Assembly (NCBI RefSeq): GCF_947499845.1
Contig: NZ_CANMPM010000010.1
Coordinates: 1-64,000 of the forward strand
Reading direction: 5' to 3'
Source: an uncultured Pseudokineococcus sp.
GTDB lineage: Bacteria; Actinomycetota; Actinomycetes; Actinomycetales; Quadrisphaeraceae
DNA length: 64,000 bases
Shown: positions 5,070 to 61,588 of the stretch, piece by piece
Layout: each line of letters begins with the position of its first letter
Numbering within the stretch: the first letter of the stretch is position 1
Notes under the pieces: model-generated
Database searches by the model: none
What the model was told of the DNA's origin: nothing
The model's input: only the letters and a program-made list of their open reading frames with translations
Made by a program: the position numbers and the translations under genes

Positions 5070-5076
5070 GCCCACC

Positions 5077-5148
5077 GCGCGTCCGGTCGGGTCCGCGCGT
5101 CCGGTCGGGTCCGCGCGTCCGGTCGGGTCCGCGCGTCCGGTCGGGTCC
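5077..5148. repeat. Four tandem 18-bp repeats
   Basis: The unit GCGCGTCCGGTCGGGTCC is repeated exactly four times directly after the flavoprotein stop codon. No gene overlaps it. It is the first of several short tandem arrays placed at gene 3' ends in this window. Confidence 0.95.
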
Positions 5149-5149
5149 G

Positions 5150-5255
5150 CGGGCGGGGTCGCGCGCGCTCCGGCACTGGCTCGGCGCTCTGCGGCCGGGT
5201 GCCGCTGGGGTCCGGGCGCCGGCCTGACGTGCACTCCGCGCACACGGCCCCGACC
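5150..5255 (-). repeat. Degenerate fourth copy of the 105-bp palindromic element
   Basis: Read on the minus strand, the core (5171-5234) begins GTGCACGTCAGGC and ends AGCCAGTGCCG, matching both ends of the copies at 42.6, 42.8 and 51.0 kb. The middle has diverged but can still fold, with GGCGC facing GCGCC. The outer arms differ in sequence from every other copy, yet GTGTGCGC still faces GCGCGCGC when two G-T pairs are allowed. It sits in the convergent gap between the flavoprotein gene and dnaB. Confidence 0.6.
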
Positions 5256-5366
5256 GCTCGTGCATCCCTCCGGGCCTGGGGTGCTCCCCGCGCGCGTGCC
5301 CCGCCCGCTCGTGCATCCGTCCGGCCTCGGGTGCTCCCCGCCCGCACCGCCCGCCCACTCGTGCGC
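5256..5366. repeat. Imperfect tandem repeat, 51-bp pitch
   Basis: GCTCGTGCATCC recurs at 5256 and 5307 and a decayed CTCGTGCG at about 5358. The units are about 51 bp and share GGGTGCTCCCCGC-type blocks. Together with the 18-bp array and the palindromic element this fills the roughly 350-bp convergent gap before dnaB, where I see no gene. Confidence 0.75.
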
Positions 5367-16125: not shown

Positions 16126-16702
16126 AGGTGGTCGTCCCTCGGTCGTCCGTCGTCGGCACCGGTCGCGTGCCTGGTCGGCCCGGGCCGGGGCCGGCGGGGG
16201 ACGGCGGCGCCGTCCTCGTGGACGACCCCGTGACGGGGCGTCCTCGTCGTGCCGGACCGGTCGACGCCGGTCCCGTCGTGCGGGGCCGTCACCCGTCAGG
16301 GTGATCGGCACGGGCGCTCGGGTGCTTGAGCGCCGTGTCCTCACCGCGCTCGAGCGCGGTGCCCCGGCCCCCGGCGGCGCTCGTCGCGACCCGCCGGCGC
16401 CCGAGAGTATGCGCACCCAGCCTGGGCGGACGCTGACGGCGAGCCCCGGTCGTCCCGGGACCCGCGCGTCCGGGCGGCATCGACAACGCCCCTCGGGCGC
16501 GCCGTCATCCCGCAGGCCCCGGCGGCTCACAGGGCGACATGGCCACACATCGCCCACCCCCCGCCCCCCCGAGGGGCGACATGGCCACACATCGCCCACC
16601 CCCCGACGCCCAAGGGGCGACATGGCCACACATCGCCCACCCGGCGCGCCCGGGGCGACACGACCGCACCTCGCCGCCGGGGCCGAGGGGGACCATGGCG
16701 TC
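16126..16702. other. Divergent gap between PBP and MFS genes
   Basis: This 577-bp stretch separates the divergent PBP and MFS genes and holds array B in its right third. I see no gene. Sequence such as CGGTCCGGCACGACG near 16250 may contain the PBP promoter, but no clear -10/-35 pair can be named. Confidence 0.6.
16532..16675. repeat. Array B: four short palindromic repeats at about 41-bp pitch
   Basis: Each 24-base unit starts GGGCGA, contains CATGGCCACACA and ends TCGCCC, so six-base arms are perfectly inverted. Units begin at 16532, 16574, 16615 and 16653 (steps 42, 41, 38 bp). The first three are identical and the last is degenerate. The same repeat recurs at 55.2 kb. Confidence 0.9.
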
Positions 16703-40991: not shown

Positions 40992-42476
40992 GTGAGCACC
41001 GACGGCGGCGAGCAGCCCGACCTGCCCCTGGCCTGGTCGCGGGCGATGCAGCGCTTCCGCGGCGACGAGCGCATCACCGCCTCGAACCTGGGCTTCCTGC
41101 GCCACACGCGACCCCTCGGCCTGCTCGACGGGACGCTGCTGCTGGTCGTGCGCGACGACCTCACGAAGAGCGTCCTCGAGCAGCGGGTCCGCGACGTCGT
41201 CGTCGGCGTCCTCGGCGAGGAGCTGGGCCGCCCGGTCCGGCTGGCCATCACGGTCGACCCCTCGCTCGACGTCGACGCCCTCGACGGCCCGGCCGACGGC
41301 AGCGTCGAGGCCGGGGTCGACGGGACCTCGCCCACGGACGACGACGAGGGCACCGCCGCGACGGGGGGCCTGGAGCGGGCGGTCGACGAGCTGCCGCCGC
41401 CCGTCGGGGTGCGCCCGCGCGACCCGGGCCGTCCGAGCGAGCCCACTCGGCTCAACCCCAAGTACACGTTCGACAGCTTCGTCATCGGCGCCTCCAACCG
41501 CTTCGCCCACGCGGCGGCCGTGGCCGTGGCCGAGGCGCCGGCGAAGGCGTACAACCCGCTCTTCGTCTACGGGGAGTCGGGGCTCGGCAAGACGCACCTG
41601 CTGCACGCCATCGGCGACTACGCCGCCAAGCTCTACCAGGGCGTGCGCGTGCGGTACGTGAACTCGGAGGAGTTCACCAACGACTTCATCAACTCCATCC
41701 GCGACGACAAGGCGTCGGCCTTCCAGCGCCGGTACCGCGACGTCGACGTCCTGCTCATCGACGACATCCAGTTCCTGTCGAACAAGGTGCAGACGCAGGA
41801 GGAGTTCTTCCACACCTTCAACACGCTGCACAACGCGGACAAGCAGGTCGTCGTCACGAGCGACCTGCCGCCCAAGCAGCTGTCGGGCTTCGAGGAGCGC
41901 ATGCGCTCGCGCTTCGAGTGGGGGCTCATCACCGACGTCCAGCCGCCCGACCTCGAGACGCGCATCGCCATCCTGCGCAAGAAGGCCGCGGGCGACGAGC
42001 TGCAGGCGCCGGACGACGTCCTCGAGTTCATCGCGAGCAAGATCTCGACGAACATCCGCGAGCTCGAGGGCGCCCTCATCCGCGTGACGGCCTTCGCCAA
42101 CCTCAACCGCCAGGGCGTGGACCTGCCGCTCGCCGAGGTGGTGCTCAAGGACCTGCTGACCGACACGGGCACCGGCGTCGTCACCGTCGCGACGATCATG
42201 GCGCAGGCCTCCGACTACTTCGGCGTCACGATGGAGGACCTCGCCGGCGCCTCGCGCTCGCGCACCCTCGTGACGGCCCGCCAGACGGCCATGTACCTGT
42301 GCCGTGAGCTCACCGACCTCTCCCTGCCCAAGATCGGGCAGGCGTTCGGCGGTCGCGACCACACCACGGTCATGCACGCCAACCGCAAGATCCGCGAGCA
42401 GATGGCGGAGCGCCGCTCGACCTTCAACCAGGTCACCGAGCTCACCAACCGGATCAAGCAGCAGCACCGCTCCTGA
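40992..42476 (+). CDS. dnaA: Chromosomal replication initiator protein DnaA
   Basis: This 494-residue AAA+ protein binds DnaA boxes and opens the origin. It has the N-terminal DnaB-interaction domain (about 10-85), a variable acidic linker, the ATPase domain with GESGLGKTHLLHAIG (about 194-208) and LLIDDIQFL, and the C-terminal DNA-binding domain with GGRDHTTVMHANRKI. GTG 40992 is preceded by GGAGAGGG. The boxes on both sides of the gene are probably its binding sites. Confidence 0.98.
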   Translation: MSTDGGEQPDLPLAWSRAMQRFRGDERITASNLGFLRHTRPLGLLDGTLLLVVRDDLTKSVLEQRVRDVVVGVLGEELGRPVRLAITVDPSLDVDALDGPADGSVEAGVDGTSPTDDDEGTAATGGLERAVDELPPPVGVRPRDPGRPSEPTRLNPKYTFDSFVIGASNRFAHAAAVAVAEAPAKAYNPLFVYGESGLGKTHLLHAIGDYAAKLYQGVRVRYVNSEEFTNDFINSIRDDKASAFQRRYRDVDVLLIDDIQFLSNKVQTQEEFFHTFNTLHNADKQVVVTSDLPPKQLSGFEERMRSRFEWGLITDVQPPDLETRIAILRKKAAGDELQAPDDVLEFIASKISTNIRELEGALIRVTAFANLNRQGVDLPLAEVVLKDLLTDTGTGVVTVATIMAQASDYFGVTMEDLAGASRSRTLVTARQTAMYLCRELTDLSLPKIGQAFGGRDHTTVMHANRKIREQMAERRSTFNQVTELTNRIKQQHRS

Positions 42477-42578
42477 CCGCCCCCGGGGGCAGCAGCCCAC
42501 GAGGCCGCGACCGGGACACGCTCGCCCGGACGGGGCTGCGCCTGCGAGGGCGCCGCGCGTGGCGGTGACGTCCGCCCA

Positions 42579-42683
42579 GGTGGGGGCGGGTGGTGTCCGG
42601 GGCACGTCAGGCGTGCGCCCGTGCTGGGCGCCAGCCCCAGCGAGGGAGCGTAGCCAGTGCCCCGGGCGGCGCCCGCGCCCACC
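42579..42683 (+). repeat. Palindromic element, copy 1
   Basis: A 63-bp core (42600-42662) starting GGGCACGTCAGGCG and ending GCGTAGCCAGTGCCC is enclosed by 21-bp arms. Of 21 arm pairs, 16 are Watson-Crick, 3 are T-G and 2 are G-G. Inside, GCTGGG and CCCAGC form an inner hairpin. GGTGACGTCCGC precedes it. Confidence 0.85.
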
Positions 42684-42772
42684 GGTCCAGCCACGACGGA
42701 CCAGCCACCCAGGCCCCGGGCACGGACCAGCGCGGCAGGCCCACCGCCACGACGGCCGGTGACGTCCGCGCA

Positions 42773-42877
42773 GGTGGGGGCGGGTGGCGTGCGGGGCACG
42801 TCGGGCGAGCGCCCGTGCTGGGCGCCAGCCCCAGCGAGGGGGCGTAGCCAGTGCCCCGCACGCCACCCGCGCCCACC
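42773..42877 (+). repeat. Palindromic element, copy 2
   Basis: The 63-bp core (42794-42856) is nearly identical to copy 1. The 21-bp arms pair at 20 of 21 positions; the exception is the same G-G pair seen in the other well-preserved copies. It is in the same orientation as copy 1, 194 bp further on, again preceded by GGTGACGTCCGC. Confidence 0.88.
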
Positions 42878-42882
42878 CACCC

Positions 42883-42987
42883 AGCCACGAGACACCCAGC
42901 CACGAGACACCCGGCCACGAGACACCCGGCCACGAGACACCCGGCCACGAGACACCCGGCCACGAGACACCCGGCCACAGATCACCC
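42883..42987. repeat. Seven 15-bp iteron-like direct repeats in oriC region
   Basis: The unit GGCCACGAGACACCC is repeated head to tail seven times. The first two units start AGCC and the last is degenerate (GGCCACAGATCACCC). The array sits between the palindromic elements and the DnaA boxes. Such iterons usually bind an initiator or regulator; no such protein is identified. Confidence 0.92.
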
Positions 42988-43026
42988 GGACGACGGTCAC
43001 GACGACGCCGCGGCCCCGGCAAGCGC

Positions 43027-43225
43027 CTCCCCACAGGTGTGCACAACCCTGTGGACATCTGTGGAGATCCCCCCGTGCGCGTCCACACCCCCGTGGACGG
43101 AGAGCCGGGGCCGCACCGGCGTGCACACCCCCGGGTCGACCCGGCGGACGGGCGCCCCCACGGCGTCCCGAGGGCGACACGCGACGTGACCTGCGGCGCC
43201 GTCCCGTCCTCCACAGCGTCCACAG
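43027..43225. promoter_or_regulatory. DnaA-box cluster in oriC candidate
   Basis: Sites close to TTGTCCACA include TTGTGCACA (43038-43046, minus), ATGTCCACA (43050-43058, minus), ATCTCCACA (43060-43068, minus), GCGTCCACA (43079-43087), TCCTCCACA (43207-43215) and GCGTCCACA (43217-43225). The first three are tightly packed at about 11-bp steps, in helical phase. Confidence 0.75.
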
Positions 43226-43511
43226 CACCGATGACGAGGACGAGCCTCCCCGGTGAAGAGGAGATCCGCGCACAGCTGGTGGAGGGCCTGTCTGGGGACG
43301 AGCGCCTCGAGGCCGGCGACGCGGGAGGTGGGCGAGCCCGGGAGCGACGCGCCGTCGCTGGTGCGACCCGGGAGGGGACGGTGGAGCGGGCCCTCGCCGC
43401 GAGCCGCGTCTGCCGTAGGGTCGGCGACCGCGCCCGCGCGTCCGCCGGGCCGCACCAGCGGACGCACCCCTGCAGCGAGCAGCGCGGGGGCGCCGGGAGG
43501 GGTCGGTCGCC

Positions 43512-44654
43512 GTGAGGTTCAGGGTCGAGCGCGACGTGCTCGCGGAGGCGGTCACGTGGACCGCGCGCTCCCTCCCCACCCGTCCGCCGGTGCCGGTGCT
43601 CGCCGGTCTGGTGCTCGACGCCGACGCGAGCGGGACGCTGTCGTTCGCGGGCTTCGACTACGAGGTCTCGGGGCGCGTCGAGGTGGCCGCGGAGGTCGAG
43701 GACGCGGGCCGGGCGCTCGTGTCGGGGCGCCTGCTGGCCGACATCGCGCGGAGCCTGCCGAGCCGGCCGGTGGAGGTCGTGAGCGAGGGCTCGAAGGTGA
43801 CGCTGACGTGCGGCGCCAGCCGCTTCCAGCTGCTGACGATGCCCGTCGAGGAGTACCCGGCGCTGCCGGAGATGCCCGCGTCCAGCGGCGTGGTGGCGGG
43901 CGACGTGCTGACGCAGGCGGTGGGCCAGGTCGTCGTCGCCGCGAGCCGCGACGAGACGCTGCCGATCCTCACCGGCGTCCGCATGGAGATCGAGGGCGAC
44001 CGGCTGACGCTGCTGGCCACGGACCGCTACCGGCTCGCGATGCGCGAGCTGGCGTGGTCCCCCGCGACGCCGGGGGCGTCCACGACGGCGCTCGTCCGCG
44101 CCCGCACGCTCTCGGAGGTGGCGCGCTCGCTCGGCTCGGGCGGGGGGGACGTCGTCGTCGCGCTGTCCGACGGCACGAGCGGCACGGGCACGGCGATGAT
44201 CGGCTTCGAGGCGGGGGGCCGGCGCACGACGTCGCTGCTCGTCGACGGCGAGTACCCGAAGGTGCGCTCGCTGTTCCCGGCCGAGTCGGCCGTGCGCGCC
44301 GTCGTCGGGCGCGAGGAGCTCGTCGACGCGGTGCGGCGCGTGTCGCTCGTGGCGGAGCGCAACACCCCGGTGCGGCTGTCTTTCACCGAGGGCCAGGTGG
44401 TCCTCGAGGCCGGCGCCGGGGACGACGCGCAGGCGAGCGAGGCCCTGCCGGCGACGCTCGACGGCGAGCCGCTGGAGATCGCCTTCAACCCGGCGTTCCT
44501 CCTCGACGGGCTGGGGGCGCTGCCGACGCCGCACGTGCGCCTGTCCTTCACCCAGCCGACGAAGCCGGCGGTCCTCACGGGCCAGCAGGAGCCCGAGGGC
44601 GACGACGACCCGGGCTACCGGTACCTGCTCATGCCCGTCCGGATGGCCGGCTGA
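43512..44654 (+). CDS. dnaN: DNA polymerase III sliding clamp, beta subunit
   Basis: This 380-residue protein forms the ring that tethers polymerase to DNA. The three clamp domains are present (MRFRVERDVLAEAVTWTARS; ILTGVRMEIEGDRLTLLATD; VRLSFTQPTKPAVLTG) and it ends YLLMPVRMAG as usual. GTG 43512 follows GGGAGGGG. It is the first gene after oriC, followed by gnd rather than directly by recF. Confidence 0.97.
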   Translation: MRFRVERDVLAEAVTWTARSLPTRPPVPVLAGLVLDADASGTLSFAGFDYEVSGRVEVAAEVEDAGRALVSGRLLADIARSLPSRPVEVVSEGSKVTLTCGASRFQLLTMPVEEYPALPEMPASSGVVAGDVLTQAVGQVVVAASRDETLPILTGVRMEIEGDRLTLLATDRYRLAMRELAWSPATPGASTTALVRARTLSEVARSLGSGGGDVVVALSDGTSGTGTAMIGFEAGGRRTTSLLVDGEYPKVRSLFPAESAVRAVVGREELVDAVRRVSLVAERNTPVRLSFTEGQVVLEAGAGDDAQASEALPATLDGEPLEIAFNPAFLLDGLGALPTPHVRLSFTQPTKPAVLTGQQEPEGDDDPGYRYLLMPVRMAG

Positions 44655-48241: not shown

Positions 48242-50907
<2,666 letters not shown>

Positions 50908-50928: not shown

Positions 50929-50963
50929 GTCTGCTCGGGGCCGGGTGCCTCTCGGCTGGGGGC

Positions 50964-51067
50964 GCCGGGCGCCGGACCCGCCGAGGGCACTGGCTACGCA
51001 CCCGCGCTGGGCTGCTGCCCAGCACGGATGCTCGCCTGACGTGCCCCCGGCGGGTCCGCCCCCCGGC
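50964..51067 (-). repeat. Palindromic element, copy 3 (inverted)
   Basis: On the minus strand the core (50985-51046) starts GGGCACGTCAGGCGAG and ends GCGTAGCCAGTGCCC. The arms (GCCGGGGGGCGGACCC type) differ from copies 1 and 2 but pair at 18 of 21 positions plus one G-T pair, and keep the G-G mismatch at the same place. TGCACGAGC precedes it, as for the copy at 5.2 kb. Confidence 0.85.
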
Positions 51068-51376
51068 GCTCGTGCACGTCGCCCGGCCGCAGGCGTCCTC
51101 CCTCGTGGCTCCGGCGCCGCGGTCGGATGACCGGGCGCGGACGTCGTCGGCGGGCGGGAGCCGGAGCGGCCGGCTCGCCGAGGGCGGTCTCGACGCGACC
51201 ACGGGGGTGGTGACCTCCCCGAGCGCGAGGGGAGGCAGCCGCCTCGCGCCCCCGGCCACGACGACGGTGCGCCCCACGCCCCCCGCCCGGACGACGGCGA
51301 CCGCAGCGCACCCAGCCGCAGCACAGACCCCGACGGTGCCCCAGCACGTGCACCGCCTCCTCGACGAAGGACTGAC

Positions 51377-54175
51377 GTGAGCGAGACGACGCCCCCGGGC
51401 CCGGAGACCGACCGCATCGAGCCGGTCGACCTGCAGCTCGAGATGCAGCGCAGCTACCTCGACTACGCGATGAGCGTGATCGTCGGGCGCGCGCTGCCCG
51501 AGGTGCGGGACGGGCTGAAGCCCGTGCACCGGCGGGTGCTCTACGCCATGTACGACGGCGGGTACCGGCCCGACCGCGGGTTCAACAAGTGCAGCCGCGT
51601 GGTCGGCGACGTCATGGGGCAGTACCACCCTCACGGCGACAGCTCGATCTACGACACCCTCGTGCGGCTCGCGCAGGACTGGACGCTGCGGTACCCGCTC
51701 GTGCAGGGGCAGGGGAACTTCGGGTCGCCCGGCAACGACCCGGCCGCGGCGATGCGGTACACGGAGTGCCGTCTGGCGCCGCTGGCCATGGAGATGGTCC
51801 GCGACATCGACCAGGACACGGTCGACATGGGCCCGAACTACGACGGGCGCACCGAGGAGCCGGTGATCCTGCCGAGCCGGTTCCCCAACCTGCTCGTCAA
51901 CGGCAGCGCCGGCATCGCCGTCGGCATGGCGACGAACATCCCACCGCACAACCTCCGCGAGGTCGGGTCGGGTGTGCAGTGGTTCCTCGAGAACCCCACG
52001 GCCAGCCGCGAGGAGCTGCTCGAGGCGCTCCTCGAGCGCATCAAGGGCCCCGACTTCCCGACGGGGGCGCTCATCACGGGGCGCCGGGGCATCGAGGACG
52101 CGTACCGCACCGGGCGCGGGTCCATCACGATGCGGGCGGTCGTCGAGGTCGAGGAGATCGCCGGGCGCACGTGCCTCGTCGTGAAGGCGCTCCCCTACCA
52201 GGTCAACCCCGACGACCTGGCGCAGAAGATCGCCGAGCTCGTCCGGGACGGGCGGATGGCCGGCATCGCCGACATCCGCGACGAGACGTCGGGCCGCACC
52301 GGGCAGCGGCTCGTCATCGTGCTCAAGCGCGACGCCGTCGCGAAGGTCGTCCTCAACAACCTGTACAAGCACACGGCGCTGCAGCAGAGCTTCGGCGCCA
52401 ACATGCTGGCGCTCGTCGACGGGGTGCCGCGCACGCTCTCGCTCGACGGCTTCGTGCGGCACTGGGTCGACCACCAGATCGAGGTCATCGTCCGGCGCAC
52501 GCGCTACCGGCTGCGGCAGGCCGAGGAGCGGGCCCACATCCTGCGCGGGCTCGTCAAGGCGCTCGACGCGCTCGACGAGGTCATCGCCCTCATCCGGGCG
52601 GCGGCGACGGTCGAGGTGGCGCGCGACGGGCTCATCGAGCTGCTCGACATCGACGAGCTGCAGGCCCGCGCCATCCTCGACATGCAGCTGCGGCGCCTCG
52701 CGGCCCTGGAGCGGCAGCGGATCGTCGACGACCTCGCGGCGCTGGAGCTCCAGATCGCCGAGTTCCGGGCGATCCTCGAGAGCCCGCAGCGCCAGCGCGA
52801 CATCGTCTCGGCCGAGCTCGCGGAGATCATCGAGAAGTACGGCGACGACCGGCGCACCGAGATCATCCCCTTCGACGGGGACATGTCGGCCGAGGACCTC
52901 ATCCCCGAGGAGGAGGTCGTCGTCACCATCACGCGCGGCGGGTACGCCAAGCGCACGCGCACCGACGCCTACCGCTCGCAGCGGCGCGGCGGCAAGGGCG
53001 TGCGCGGGACGGCGCTGCGGGGCGACGACGTCGTCGAGCACTTCTTCACGACGACGACGCACCACTGGCTGCTCTTCTTCACGAACCTCGGCCGGGTGTA
53101 CCGCGCCAAGGCGCACGAGCTCCCCGAGGGCTCGCGGGACGGTCGGGGCCAGCACGTGGCCAACCTCCTGGCCTTCGCGCCGGGCGAGCAGATCGCCCAG
53201 GTGCTCGACATCCGCGACTACGAGCAGGCCCCCTACCTCGTGCTGGCCACGCGGCGGGGCCTCGTGAAGAAGAGCCGCCTGTCCGACTACGACTCCCCGC
53301 GCGCCGGCGGCCTCATCGCCATCAACCTGCGGGGCGCCCAGACGGCGGAGCTGGACGTCGCCGCCGACGGCGGGGACGCGGACGGTGACGGCGAGGGCGC
53401 CGCGGCCGTGGCGGTCGGCGGGGACGAGCTGGTCTCGGCCGTCCTCGTCGAGGCGACCGACGACCTCCTCCTCGTGTCCCGCAAGGGGCAGTCGCTGCGC
53501 TTCACGGCGACCGACGAGGCGCTGCGGCCGATGGGCCGGGCGACGTCCGGCGTCACGGGCATGCGCTTCCGGGAGGACGACGACCTGCTCGCGCTCGGCG
53601 TCGTGCCCGAGGGCAGCCGGCGCGAGGTCTTCGTCGTCGTCGAGAACGGCACGGCCAAGCGGACGCCGGTGGACGCCTACCGGGTCCAGGGCCGCGGCGG
53701 GTACGGCATCAAGGTGGCGCGGCTGGCCGAGCGCGGCGGCGACCTCGTGGGGGCGCTGCTCGTCGAGGACGGCGACGAGGTGCTCGTCGTCATGGGCCGC
53801 GGGCGCATCGTGCGCAGCCGGGTCGACGAGGTGCGCCCGACCGGGCGCGACACGACGGGCGTCCGCTTCGCGACGCCGGACGACGGCGACGCGATCATCG
53901 CCGTCGCCCGCAACGCCGAGCGGGTCATCGAGGACGAGGTCGCGGCGGCTGACGCCGAGGGCGTGGCGCCGTCCGACGGCACCTCCACGGGAGGGTCACA
54001 GGTCGGCGACACCGGGGGGTCCGCGCGCGGGGACGCCGGTGCGGCCGGTGGTGATGGCGTAGCGTCCGCCGTCGAGGCAGGCCCCGGCGGCGGGACCGAC
54101 GACGACGCCGCGAGCGACGTCGACGACGGCGCCGGGGACGACGGGGCGGACGACGACCGAGGGAGTGGCGCGTGA
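51377..54175 (+). CDS. gyrA: DNA gyrase subunit A
   Basis: This 932-residue subunit cuts and rejoins DNA. The catalytic Tyr is in [13 protein letters not shown] (about 128), the quinolone region shows [20 protein letters not shown], with Ser and Asp at the usual resistance positions unchanged in type, and the beta-pinwheel begins with the GyrA box QRRGGKG. About 85 acidic, Gly-rich residues follow the last blade. GTG 51377 follows GAAGGACTGAC. The stop codon overlaps the DUF3566 start. Confidence 0.97.
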
Positions 54176-55117: not shown

Positions 55118-55188
55118 TCCCGCCCGCCGCCTCCACCACCGTGCCGGCCCACGTCTGTCTCCGCGTCCGCCGACCGGTGCCCTATGAC

Positions 55189-55382
55189 GGCGACGTGTGG
55201 CCATGTCGCCCTCCGAGGGCGCCTCGTGGGGGCGACATGGCCACACGTCGTCCTGCCCGGGTGGTCGGAGGGGCGACGTGGCCACACGTCGCCGTCGGGC
55301 TCGGCGGGGTGAGGGCGACATGGCCACACGTCGCCGTCGGGCTCGGCGGTGCGCCTCGGGGCGACGGAGCCGCACGTCGCCC
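55189..55382. repeat. Array C: five short palindromic repeats at about 41-bp pitch
   Basis: Units with GGCGAC and GTCGCC arms around ATGGCCACAC begin at 55189, 55230, 55271, 55313 and 55359 (steps 41, 41, 42, 46). The first is inverted and the last degenerate. The unit is the same family as array B. It fills the 331-bp convergent gap between the tRNA terminator and the next gene. Confidence 0.9.
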
Positions 55383-60850: not shown

Positions 60851-61486
60851 ATGAGCTCGTCCTCGAGCAGGATCCTCGTCGTCGACAACTACGACAGCTT
60901 CGTGTGGACCATCGTCGGGTACCTGCAGCAGCTGGGCGCGGAGTGCGAGGTCGTCCGCAACGACGAGGTCGGCGCGTCCGCGGTCGGGGAGGTCGACGGC
61001 GTCCTCGTGTCGCCCGGGCCGGGGGCGCCCGCCGACGCCGGGTCGAGCCCGGAGCTCGTGCGGGCCTGCGCGGCGACGTCGACCCCCATGCTCGGGGTCT
61101 GCCTCGGCCACCAGGTGCTCGCCGAGGTGCACGGCGCCGTGGTCACGCACGCCGAGGAGCTCATGCACGGGCGCACGAGCGAGGTGCACCACGGCGGCCG
61201 GGGGGTCCTCGACGGGCTGCCGGCGCCCTTCACGGCCACCCGGTACCACTCCCTGGCCGTCGTCGACGCGACGGTGCCCGACGAGCTCGTCGTCACCGCC
61301 CGCACGCCGGGCGGCGTCGTCATGGCGCTGGAGCACCGGGACGCGCCGCTCTACGGCGTCCAGTTCCACCCCGAGTCGGTGCTGACGCAGGGGGGCCACC
61401 GCCTGCTCGCCAACTGGCTCGCGGTGTGCGGTGACGAGGGGGCGCCCGCCCGCTCGGAGGGCATGGCGCCGCTCGTGCGCCGGTAG
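60851..61486 (+). CDS. Glutamine amidotransferase, anthranilate/aminodeoxychorismate synthase component II
   Basis: This 211-residue class I amidotransferase supplies ammonia for anthranilate or aminodeoxychorismate synthesis. It has VVDNYDSFVWTIVGYL, SPGPGAP, the catalytic Cys in GVCLGHQ (about 83) and the His-Glu pair in FHPESVLTQGG (about 173). A lone trpG/pabA gene near pknB is typical of actinobacteria, where it may serve both pathways. ATG 60851 has GGAG upstream. The last codons, including the stop, are the first unit of a 27-bp tandem array. Confidence 0.93.
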   Translation: MSSSSSRILVVDNYDSFVWTIVGYLQQLGAECEVVRNDEVGASAVGEVDGVLVSPGPGAPADAGSSPELVRACAATSTPMLGVCLGHQVLAEVHGAVVTHAEELMHGRTSEVHHGGRGVLDGLPAPFTATRYHSLAVVDATVPDELVVTARTPGGVVMALEHRDAPLYGVQFHPESVLTQGGHRLLANWLAVCGDEGAPARSEGMAPLVRR

Positions 61487-61588
61487 GGCGGAGGGCCGCT
61501 CGTGCGCCGGTAGGGCGGAGGGCCGCTCGTGCGCCGGTAGGGCGGAGGGCCGCTCGTGCGCCGGTAGGGCGGAGGGCCGCTCGTGCGC
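61469..61588. repeat. 27-bp tandem repeat starting inside the trpG/pabA 3' end
   Basis: Four full units (61469, 61496, 61523, 61550) and a partial fifth begin CCGCTCGTGCGCCGGTAG. The first unit encodes the C-terminal PLVRR and stop codon. The extra units duplicate the end of the gene into the intergenic space before pknB. Confidence 0.95.

Follow-up and report, generated by a model that had tools for sequence, protein, structure and literature searches.

A dispersed family of covarying intergenic hairpins confined to the genus Pseudokineococcus

What are the two long palindromes that stand between dnaA and dnaN in an uncultured Pseudokineococcus, and does their position beside a replication gene matter? 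The stretch analysed, hereafter the window, comprises 64,000 nucleotides (64 kb) of this genome (G000), with dnaA at 40992-42476 (forward strand, orthologue L091) and dnaN at 43512-44654 (forward strand, orthologue L101). A first-pass annotation made from the letters alone had described two 105-bp elements with a nearly invariant 63-base core in this gap, read them as a structured RNA family or a selected hairpin close to replication genes, and named no described family that matched. Both elements are present on the forward strand, copy 1 at 42579-42683 (105 bases, 72 bits) and copy 2 at 42773-42877 (105 bases, 79.5 bits), and their cores differ at 3 positions. They form a tandem duplication with a 194-base step that is found in G000 and is missing from the sister genome G001. 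The paired changes reported between them are also as described: arm pair 19 is C-G in copy 1 and G-C in copy 2, pairs 13, 16 and 18, T-G in copy 1, have become Watson-Crick pairs in copy 2, and a G-G mismatch at pair 7 occurs in copies 1-3. Pair 15, absent from that description, has a G-G mismatch in copy 1 where copy 2 has G-C. The third copy (50963-51068, reverse strand, 81.9 bits; arms 50962-50990 and 51041-51069) lies between gyrB (48604-50907, forward strand) and gyrA (51377-54175, forward strand, start codon predicted; orthologue L098 for both genes) and is antisense to both. At least nine arm pairs had been described as exchanged against copy 3: nine have changed on both sides with pairing kept between copies 2 and 3, and six between copies 1 and 3. 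The base-level details of that description hold wherever they were checked. A fourth hairpin, of a second subfamily, is located at 5149-5256 (reverse strand, core 5173-5232) between a pyridine nucleotide-disulphide oxidoreductase gene (by orthologue L120) and a DnaB-like gene. The window thus holds four hairpins of the family, three of subfamily T1 and one of T2.

These hairpins are predicted to be very stable, and they match no described family in Rfam. At the gathering cut-off, a search of the whole window returned two tRNAs and nothing at the hairpins, and a search of 42500-43000 with E up to 1 gave no match. The core pattern with up to 3 mismatches has 2 matches in the window, against 0.00 expected by shuffling.

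The family is dispersed, intergenic and confined to Pseudokineococcus. A covariance model built from 24 copies found matches in 4 of 119 genomes of the order, which are the four Pseudokineococcus genomes (G000-G003). Because the model was made from those four genomes, it is the lack of matches elsewhere that carries information. When 84,980 species were scanned for the T1 pattern, a set from which records of the window's own genome may be excluded, 14 stretches matched, all from Pseudokineococcus (P. marinus JCM 14547 and an uncultured species). A generic motif covering T1 and T2 has 67 matches in the four genomes (21 in G000, 20 in G001, 11 in G002 and 15 in G003), where its reversed form has none. 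Among 393 other genomes of the class, two have one match each to the generic motif and four have one match each to the reversed control; the matches outside the genus are therefore chance. Beyond the genus, BLASTN with copy 2 yielded nothing but partial alignments 24-46 bases long, viral contigs held no exact match to the T1 or T2 pattern, and we found no description of the family in the open-licence literature on Pseudokineococcus and on REP-like or covarying repeats.

We typed 70 copies: 26 T1, 37 T2 and 7 other. These are what is left of 77 motif places after seven were dropped, namely two places that match by chance within genes, two from other genera, the pair of long-loop variants at rpsD, and one T1 copy at a contig end that is cut by a run of C. 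The copies fall into 33 distinct loci, of which 14 carry an element in at least two species and two in all four (L090 not included). Whole T2 hairpins also occur in tandem, four at L148 1028-1415 in G001 (steps of 137, 95 and 95 bases) and three at L156 1505-1802 in G000 (119-base steps).

Each unit is about 105-130 bases long. The outer stem of about 20-28 pairs is variable in its letters and retains its pairing. Common to both subfamilies is a clamp, GCAC/GTGC and mostly GGCAC/GTGCC (the longer form in T1, the shorter in T2), followed by an internal loop in which GTSA faces a single A. In copy 2 the 5′ side of this loop (42800-42803, forward strand) reads GTCG and faces the A at 42850, and its third base is the lineage-specific C/G base discussed below. 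Inside the GTSA loop is a three-pair clamp, GSC/GSC, which in T1 is GGC/GCC in 17/26 copies and GCC/GGC in 9/26. T1 then adds a second loop, GA against GTA (42807-42808 on the forward strand, facing 42844-42846, in copy 2), and a long variable inner stem. T2 has instead a bulged A, a CGGCGC/GCGCCG stem and an open loop. The internal loops are thus nearly fixed (GTSA against A, and in T1 also GA against GTA) while the stems vary.

The variation in the stems is paired. The first-pass annotation had proposed a covariance model as a check, and strong covariation is what the homologues contain. In an alignment of 24 T1 copies from the four genomes, 89.1% of cells pair, compared with 69.1% after shuffling and 39-47% when the arms are slid. 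Both sides change in 33 of 44 pairs, and none of 500 shuffles reaches any of five measures. For T2, both sides change in 14 of 26 predicted pairs (alignment of 33 of the 37 copies).

Short motifs flank the cores. Allowing up to one mismatch within 60 bases, GGTGACG is found 5′ of 21/26 T1 cores, and ACCCRRCC 3′ of 26/26 T1 and 28/37 T2 cores; in GC-rich DNA, part of these counts may be chance. The role of GGTGACG, which precedes copy 2 at 42758-42764 (forward strand), is uncertain because the window contains 64 exact occurrences of it. The dnaA and T2 copies of the window are adjoined by short tandem arrays built of flank motifs. A 15-base array (CACCCGGCCACGAGA; 42878-42989, forward strand) begins with ACCCRRCC, and an 18-base array of the T2 3′ flank motif (GGACCCGACC) occupies 5075-5151 on the reverse strand. 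The window contains other repeats as well. At 5221-5364, tandem repeats of about 50 bases, made of the 5′ half of the T2 hairpin, adjoin the full copy. A different family of palindromic tandem repeats, with GGGCGACATGGCCACACATCGCC-like units of about 41-42 bases, is present at 16532-16675 and 55186-55349; the latter array directly follows two tRNA genes and contains the top-scoring inverted repeat of the window scan. A perfect 27-base tandem array of 4.5 copies (61468-61588) carries on its reverse strand GCACGAGCGG, a word of the T2 5′ flank, and has no hairpin of this family.

The T-G pairs had been noted as compatible with pairing on one strand only. This claim is confirmed and strengthened by the full set of mismatches. 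In the arms of T1 (26 copies, 23 arm pairs) there are 22 G·T and 24 G·G mismatches against 3 A·C and 3 C·C, or 46:6. The arms of T2 (33 copies, 16 arm pairs) have 22 G·T and 24 G·G against 4 A·C and 2 C·C, again 46:6. The binomial p of about 1e−8 per subfamily is overstated, since copies at the same locus in different species are not independent. Without copy L098:2992, whose arms are out of register, the T1 ratio is 42:2. Copies antisense to both neighbouring genes have the same bias, 19:2 in T1 (12 copies, out-of-register copy excluded) and 6:0 in T2 (6 copies). Mutation cannot distinguish the two strands of arms that are almost palindromic, and the bias therefore needs a process that sees one fold. 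Judged from these sequences, what is kept is the fold of the strand reading GCACGTSAG, whichever way the genes run.

The hairpins are also conserved in place. Between G000 and G001, 33 of 161 arm pairs differ across seven loci, with the tig locus a less certain orthologue because it is inverted between the two genomes. Fifteen of these differences are Watson-Crick to Watson-Crick changes on both sides, many of them C-G to G-C, 3 more are two-sided, and 15 are one-sided. Over 13 orthologue pairs, identity is 684/775 (88%) in the core and 532/668 (80%) in the arms, compared with 361/599 in the next 20 bases and 987/1734 in the next 60 (57-60%); these totals include the prfC pair, which is misaligned by tandem copies. 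There are exceptions: the gyr flanks are as conserved as the hairpin, and arm identity is 61% at pepO and 51% at the OYE locus. The segment between the gyrB-side hairpin and gyrA (51130-51190) is well conserved by eye in G000, G001 and G003, and is a possible gyrA promoter region.

One loop base follows the species. The third base of GTSA is G in 12/12 T1 copies of G003 and C in 16/16 of G000, G001 and G002, counts that include the cut copy L105 and L090 (gyr of G001); L090, dropped as a duplicate of the window copy, was added back here and in the arm-pair comparison of G000 and G001. G003 shares seven T1 loci with another species, with the loop base switched. The rest of the G003 core matches its orthologue at 54/58 positions at gyr and 56/59 at pepO, and at 41-49 of 59 at the other equal-length loci. 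Since the gyr and pepO cores are nearly identical to their orthologues, at these two loci at least the base changed in a copy that was inherited; for it to have been copied in from elsewhere, the tract would have to be very short. The T2 and other copies of G003 keep C (4/4). The simplest account of these alignments is a parallel change under one reader. In the T2 copies of G002 the 3′ clamp is GGC in 8/10; this switch may mark local spread, as seven of the eight loci are seen only in G002. Both partners of a head-to-head T2 pair in G002 (L123) read GTAA, not GTCA, a change limited to these two.

With genes called by a simple composition-based script, none of the 70 copies lies inside a predicted gene. 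Tandem gaps contain 48 of them and convergent gaps 19, two sit between divergent genes and one is at the edge of a contig; the hairpins in tandem and convergent gaps are mostly near stop codons. Of the tandem-gap copies, 28 are sense and 20 antisense to both genes; the 28 and the 19 convergent copies have the same direction as the gene that lies 5′ of them. Head-to-head pairs occur at four loci of the set and at rpsD, where the long-loop variants are outside it. The neighbouring genes include dnaA/dnaN, gyrB/gyrA, tig/clpP, genes for an M13 peptidase, a cobalamin adenosyltransferase and an S4-type ribosomal protein (rpsD), an M50 protease gene and ispG, pyk, a DnaB-like gene and an RF3-like gene. 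We considered a replication theme and rejected it, the neighbours being mixed. The adjacency to dnaA that first drew attention is correct but incidental, as one of the 33 loci.

Several sites point to gain, loss or movement. At L085, the G000 copy is precisely absent from G001: 222 bases are involved, with a 9-bp direct repeat (GCCCCCTGA) at the borders that includes the stop codon of the upstream gene. At the same spot G003 has both flank motifs around a short stub that by eye resembles a hairpin-less remnant, which suggests loss there. The difference between the sister genomes may therefore be an insertion in G000 or a deletion in G001 between the 9-bp repeats. No alignment was possible for a second candidate empty site (L088 of G001), because the corresponding gaps elsewhere differ too much. 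From the end of gyrB to the conserved GyrA site there are 64-82 bases in five genomes of other genera, 157 in G002, which lacks the element there, and 446-637 in G000, G001 and G003, which carry it, so that this gap is long only with an element. The contrast is weaker at dnaA-dnaN, where gaps are also long without one (637 bases in G002, and 643-685 in G005 and 785 in G006, which represent two other genera). The tig/clpP element has sense orientation in G000 but antisense orientation in G001 and G003, with 20/23 arm pairs identical; this may reflect an inversion in place or the loss of different halves of a former pair. The first-pass annotation had held that a neighbouring transposase with target-site duplications would mark a passive mobile repeat. 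One copy does have a 9-bp direct repeat and a clean empty site, but no transposase is found among the 24 annotated of 69 neighbouring protein clusters.

We lean, with modest confidence, towards genus-specific, REP/BIME-like intergenic hairpin repeats that are read strand-specifically by a putative factor, probably as single-stranded DNA. Selection would hold the fold of one strand in place. A putative trans-acting factor would read that fold through its loops and clamps and would tolerate any paired stem. The form read would probably be single-stranded DNA, as with REP hairpins; this form is the likeliest because orientation ignores transcription and no promoter box was seen. The units would have arrived as small mobile or duplicating pieces that were retained just downstream of genes. 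The covariation, the one-strand bias, the conservation of sites across species and the lineage-wide T1 loop base support this explanation, and mobility is supported by the clean absence with its 9-bp repeat, the gyr gap length, the head-to-head pairs and the tandem copies. Counted against it is that one-sided changes between G000 and G001 equal the clean paired ones, and that paired changes could also arise, with no selection involved, when replication switches template from one arm to the other. The exceptions to arm and flank conservation at gyr, pepO and the OYE locus, and the long dnaA-dnaN gaps that lack an element, weigh against it too. A search for PF01797 found no reader or transposase. 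More tentatively, the family could be a new kind of element, mainly a structural signal, in which a single strand (DNA or RNA) is read through its loops by a lineage-specific coevolving factor. Such a factor would act on all dispersed sites at once, with one loop base switched species-wide in T1 while the stems drift freely.

The main rival is a structured RNA family, either self-transcribed or part of 3′ untranslated regions, that is bound or cut by an RNA-binding protein. We regard it as unlikely, even though the G·T-rich mismatches on one strand, the conserved internal loops and the strong covariation are all expected of RNA, as is the sense orientation of the 28 tandem and 19 convergent copies. 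We also count for it the GA/GTA loop, which we take to share the letters of the bulged-G (sarcin-ricin) module. Covariation alone is no proof of RNA. A DNA hairpin is likewise disturbed less by G·G and G·T than by C·C and A·C, so the mismatch bias does not single out RNA. Both neighbours run antisense to 20 of the 70 copies, and the bias persists in the copies of this kind that were tested. None of 63 cores (26 T1, 37 T2) has a TANNNT box in the 60 bases on its 5′ side, and there is no sigma-70-like site of the E. coli-type consensus at 42400-43600. Of the original alternative between RNA and hairpin, the selected hairpin is supported, with conservation on the whole above that of its flanks; the RNA nature is disfavoured by the antisense copies and the missing box.

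It is improbable that these are bidirectional transcription terminators, for which hairpin strength alone would matter. Very stable predicted hairpins, mostly near stop codons in tandem and convergent gaps, would suit that role, but it needs neither conserved asymmetric loops nor a lineage-wide change of loop base, and a one-strand mismatch bias is unexpected of a bidirectional signal. No T-run terminator occurs at 42400-43600, the listed 3′ flanks have no T run by eye, and at one locus a different hairpin already follows the stop codon directly. At L159 and L144 a separate compact hairpin (CCCCCGTCCGCAGACCTGCGGGCGGGGG) directly follows the upstream stop codon besides the T2 hairpin, and it is likely an ordinary terminator.

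We give equally little credence to passive, functionless palindromes with arms kept alike by template switching during replication (quasipalindrome correction). Such homogenisation of arms has been described (PMC8604942), and the many C-G to G-C swaps within close orthologues fit it. The asymmetric loops, on the other hand, have not been corrected, the residual mismatches are biased to one strand, and conservation is in general higher in core and arms than in the flanks. That these are ordinary REPs mobilised by a RAYT (Y1) transposase is very improbable: the intergenic position downstream of genes, the head-to-head pairs, the conserved stem interruptions and the strand-specific reading are REP features, but PF01797 is absent from 12/12 genomes, including the four of the genus, and present in 5/14 control genomes, and units of about 105-130 bases with no GTAG/CGTC tag at the foot and no conserved stem sequence do not fit.

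REP-like repeats are usually defined by their sequence, and RAYT transposases go with the most familiar of them. In the Pseudokineococcus hairpins, which we prefer to see as REP/BIME-like repeats read on one strand, the stem sequence is free and a one-strand fold appears to be kept, in genomes without a detectable RAYT. One species offers a natural switch of specificity (C versus G in the loop), and thus a direct way to seek a reader of the folded strand. REPs of the GTAG/CGTC type are described as palindromes that lie between genes, chiefly downstream of a gene and where the neighbours run in tandem or converge; head-to-head pairs are frequent, the stems contain T-G pairs, and some REPs lie within longer palindromes (Di Nocera, 2013; PMC3733652). 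The present family resembles REP, BIME and REPIN elements in being intergenic and downstream of genes, in its head-to-head pairs and in the T-G pairs of its stems. The same source gives REPs 20-40 bases, stems of 5-13 pairs and an unpaired GTAG or CGTC tag at one end, and includes CGTC families without a transposase (PMC3733652). In contrast, the Pseudokineococcus unit has about 105-130 bases and an outer stem of about 20-28 pairs. It has no such tag at its foot; its CGTC is internal and reads CGTG in 12/12 G003 T1 copies, and the GTAG of T1 varies (e.g., GCAG or GGAG). Its stems vary and covary, and the most conserved letters are in the internal loops and short clamps. As the size, tag and RAYT tests failed, we have not filed the family as REP. 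Candidate structured RNAs of unknown class from human microbiomes are likewise covarying, palindromic and intergenic, and some are reported not to be intrinsic terminators (PMC8040213); the likeness is one of description. TnpA-REP recognises a single strand of DNA in folded form, and in E. coli the enzyme requires that the stem be interrupted by a conserved bulge (PMC8266576). Unlike that system, the four Pseudokineococcus genomes have no PF01797 gene. In integrons, attC sites combine variable self-complementary arms with conserved unpaired bases and are read as one folded strand. IntI is mentioned as acting on folded DNA (PMC8266576). No cassettes were noted with the Pseudokineococcus hairpins. 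Set beside attC by description alone, the Pseudokineococcus hairpins share its variable self-complementary arms and its conserved unpaired bases.
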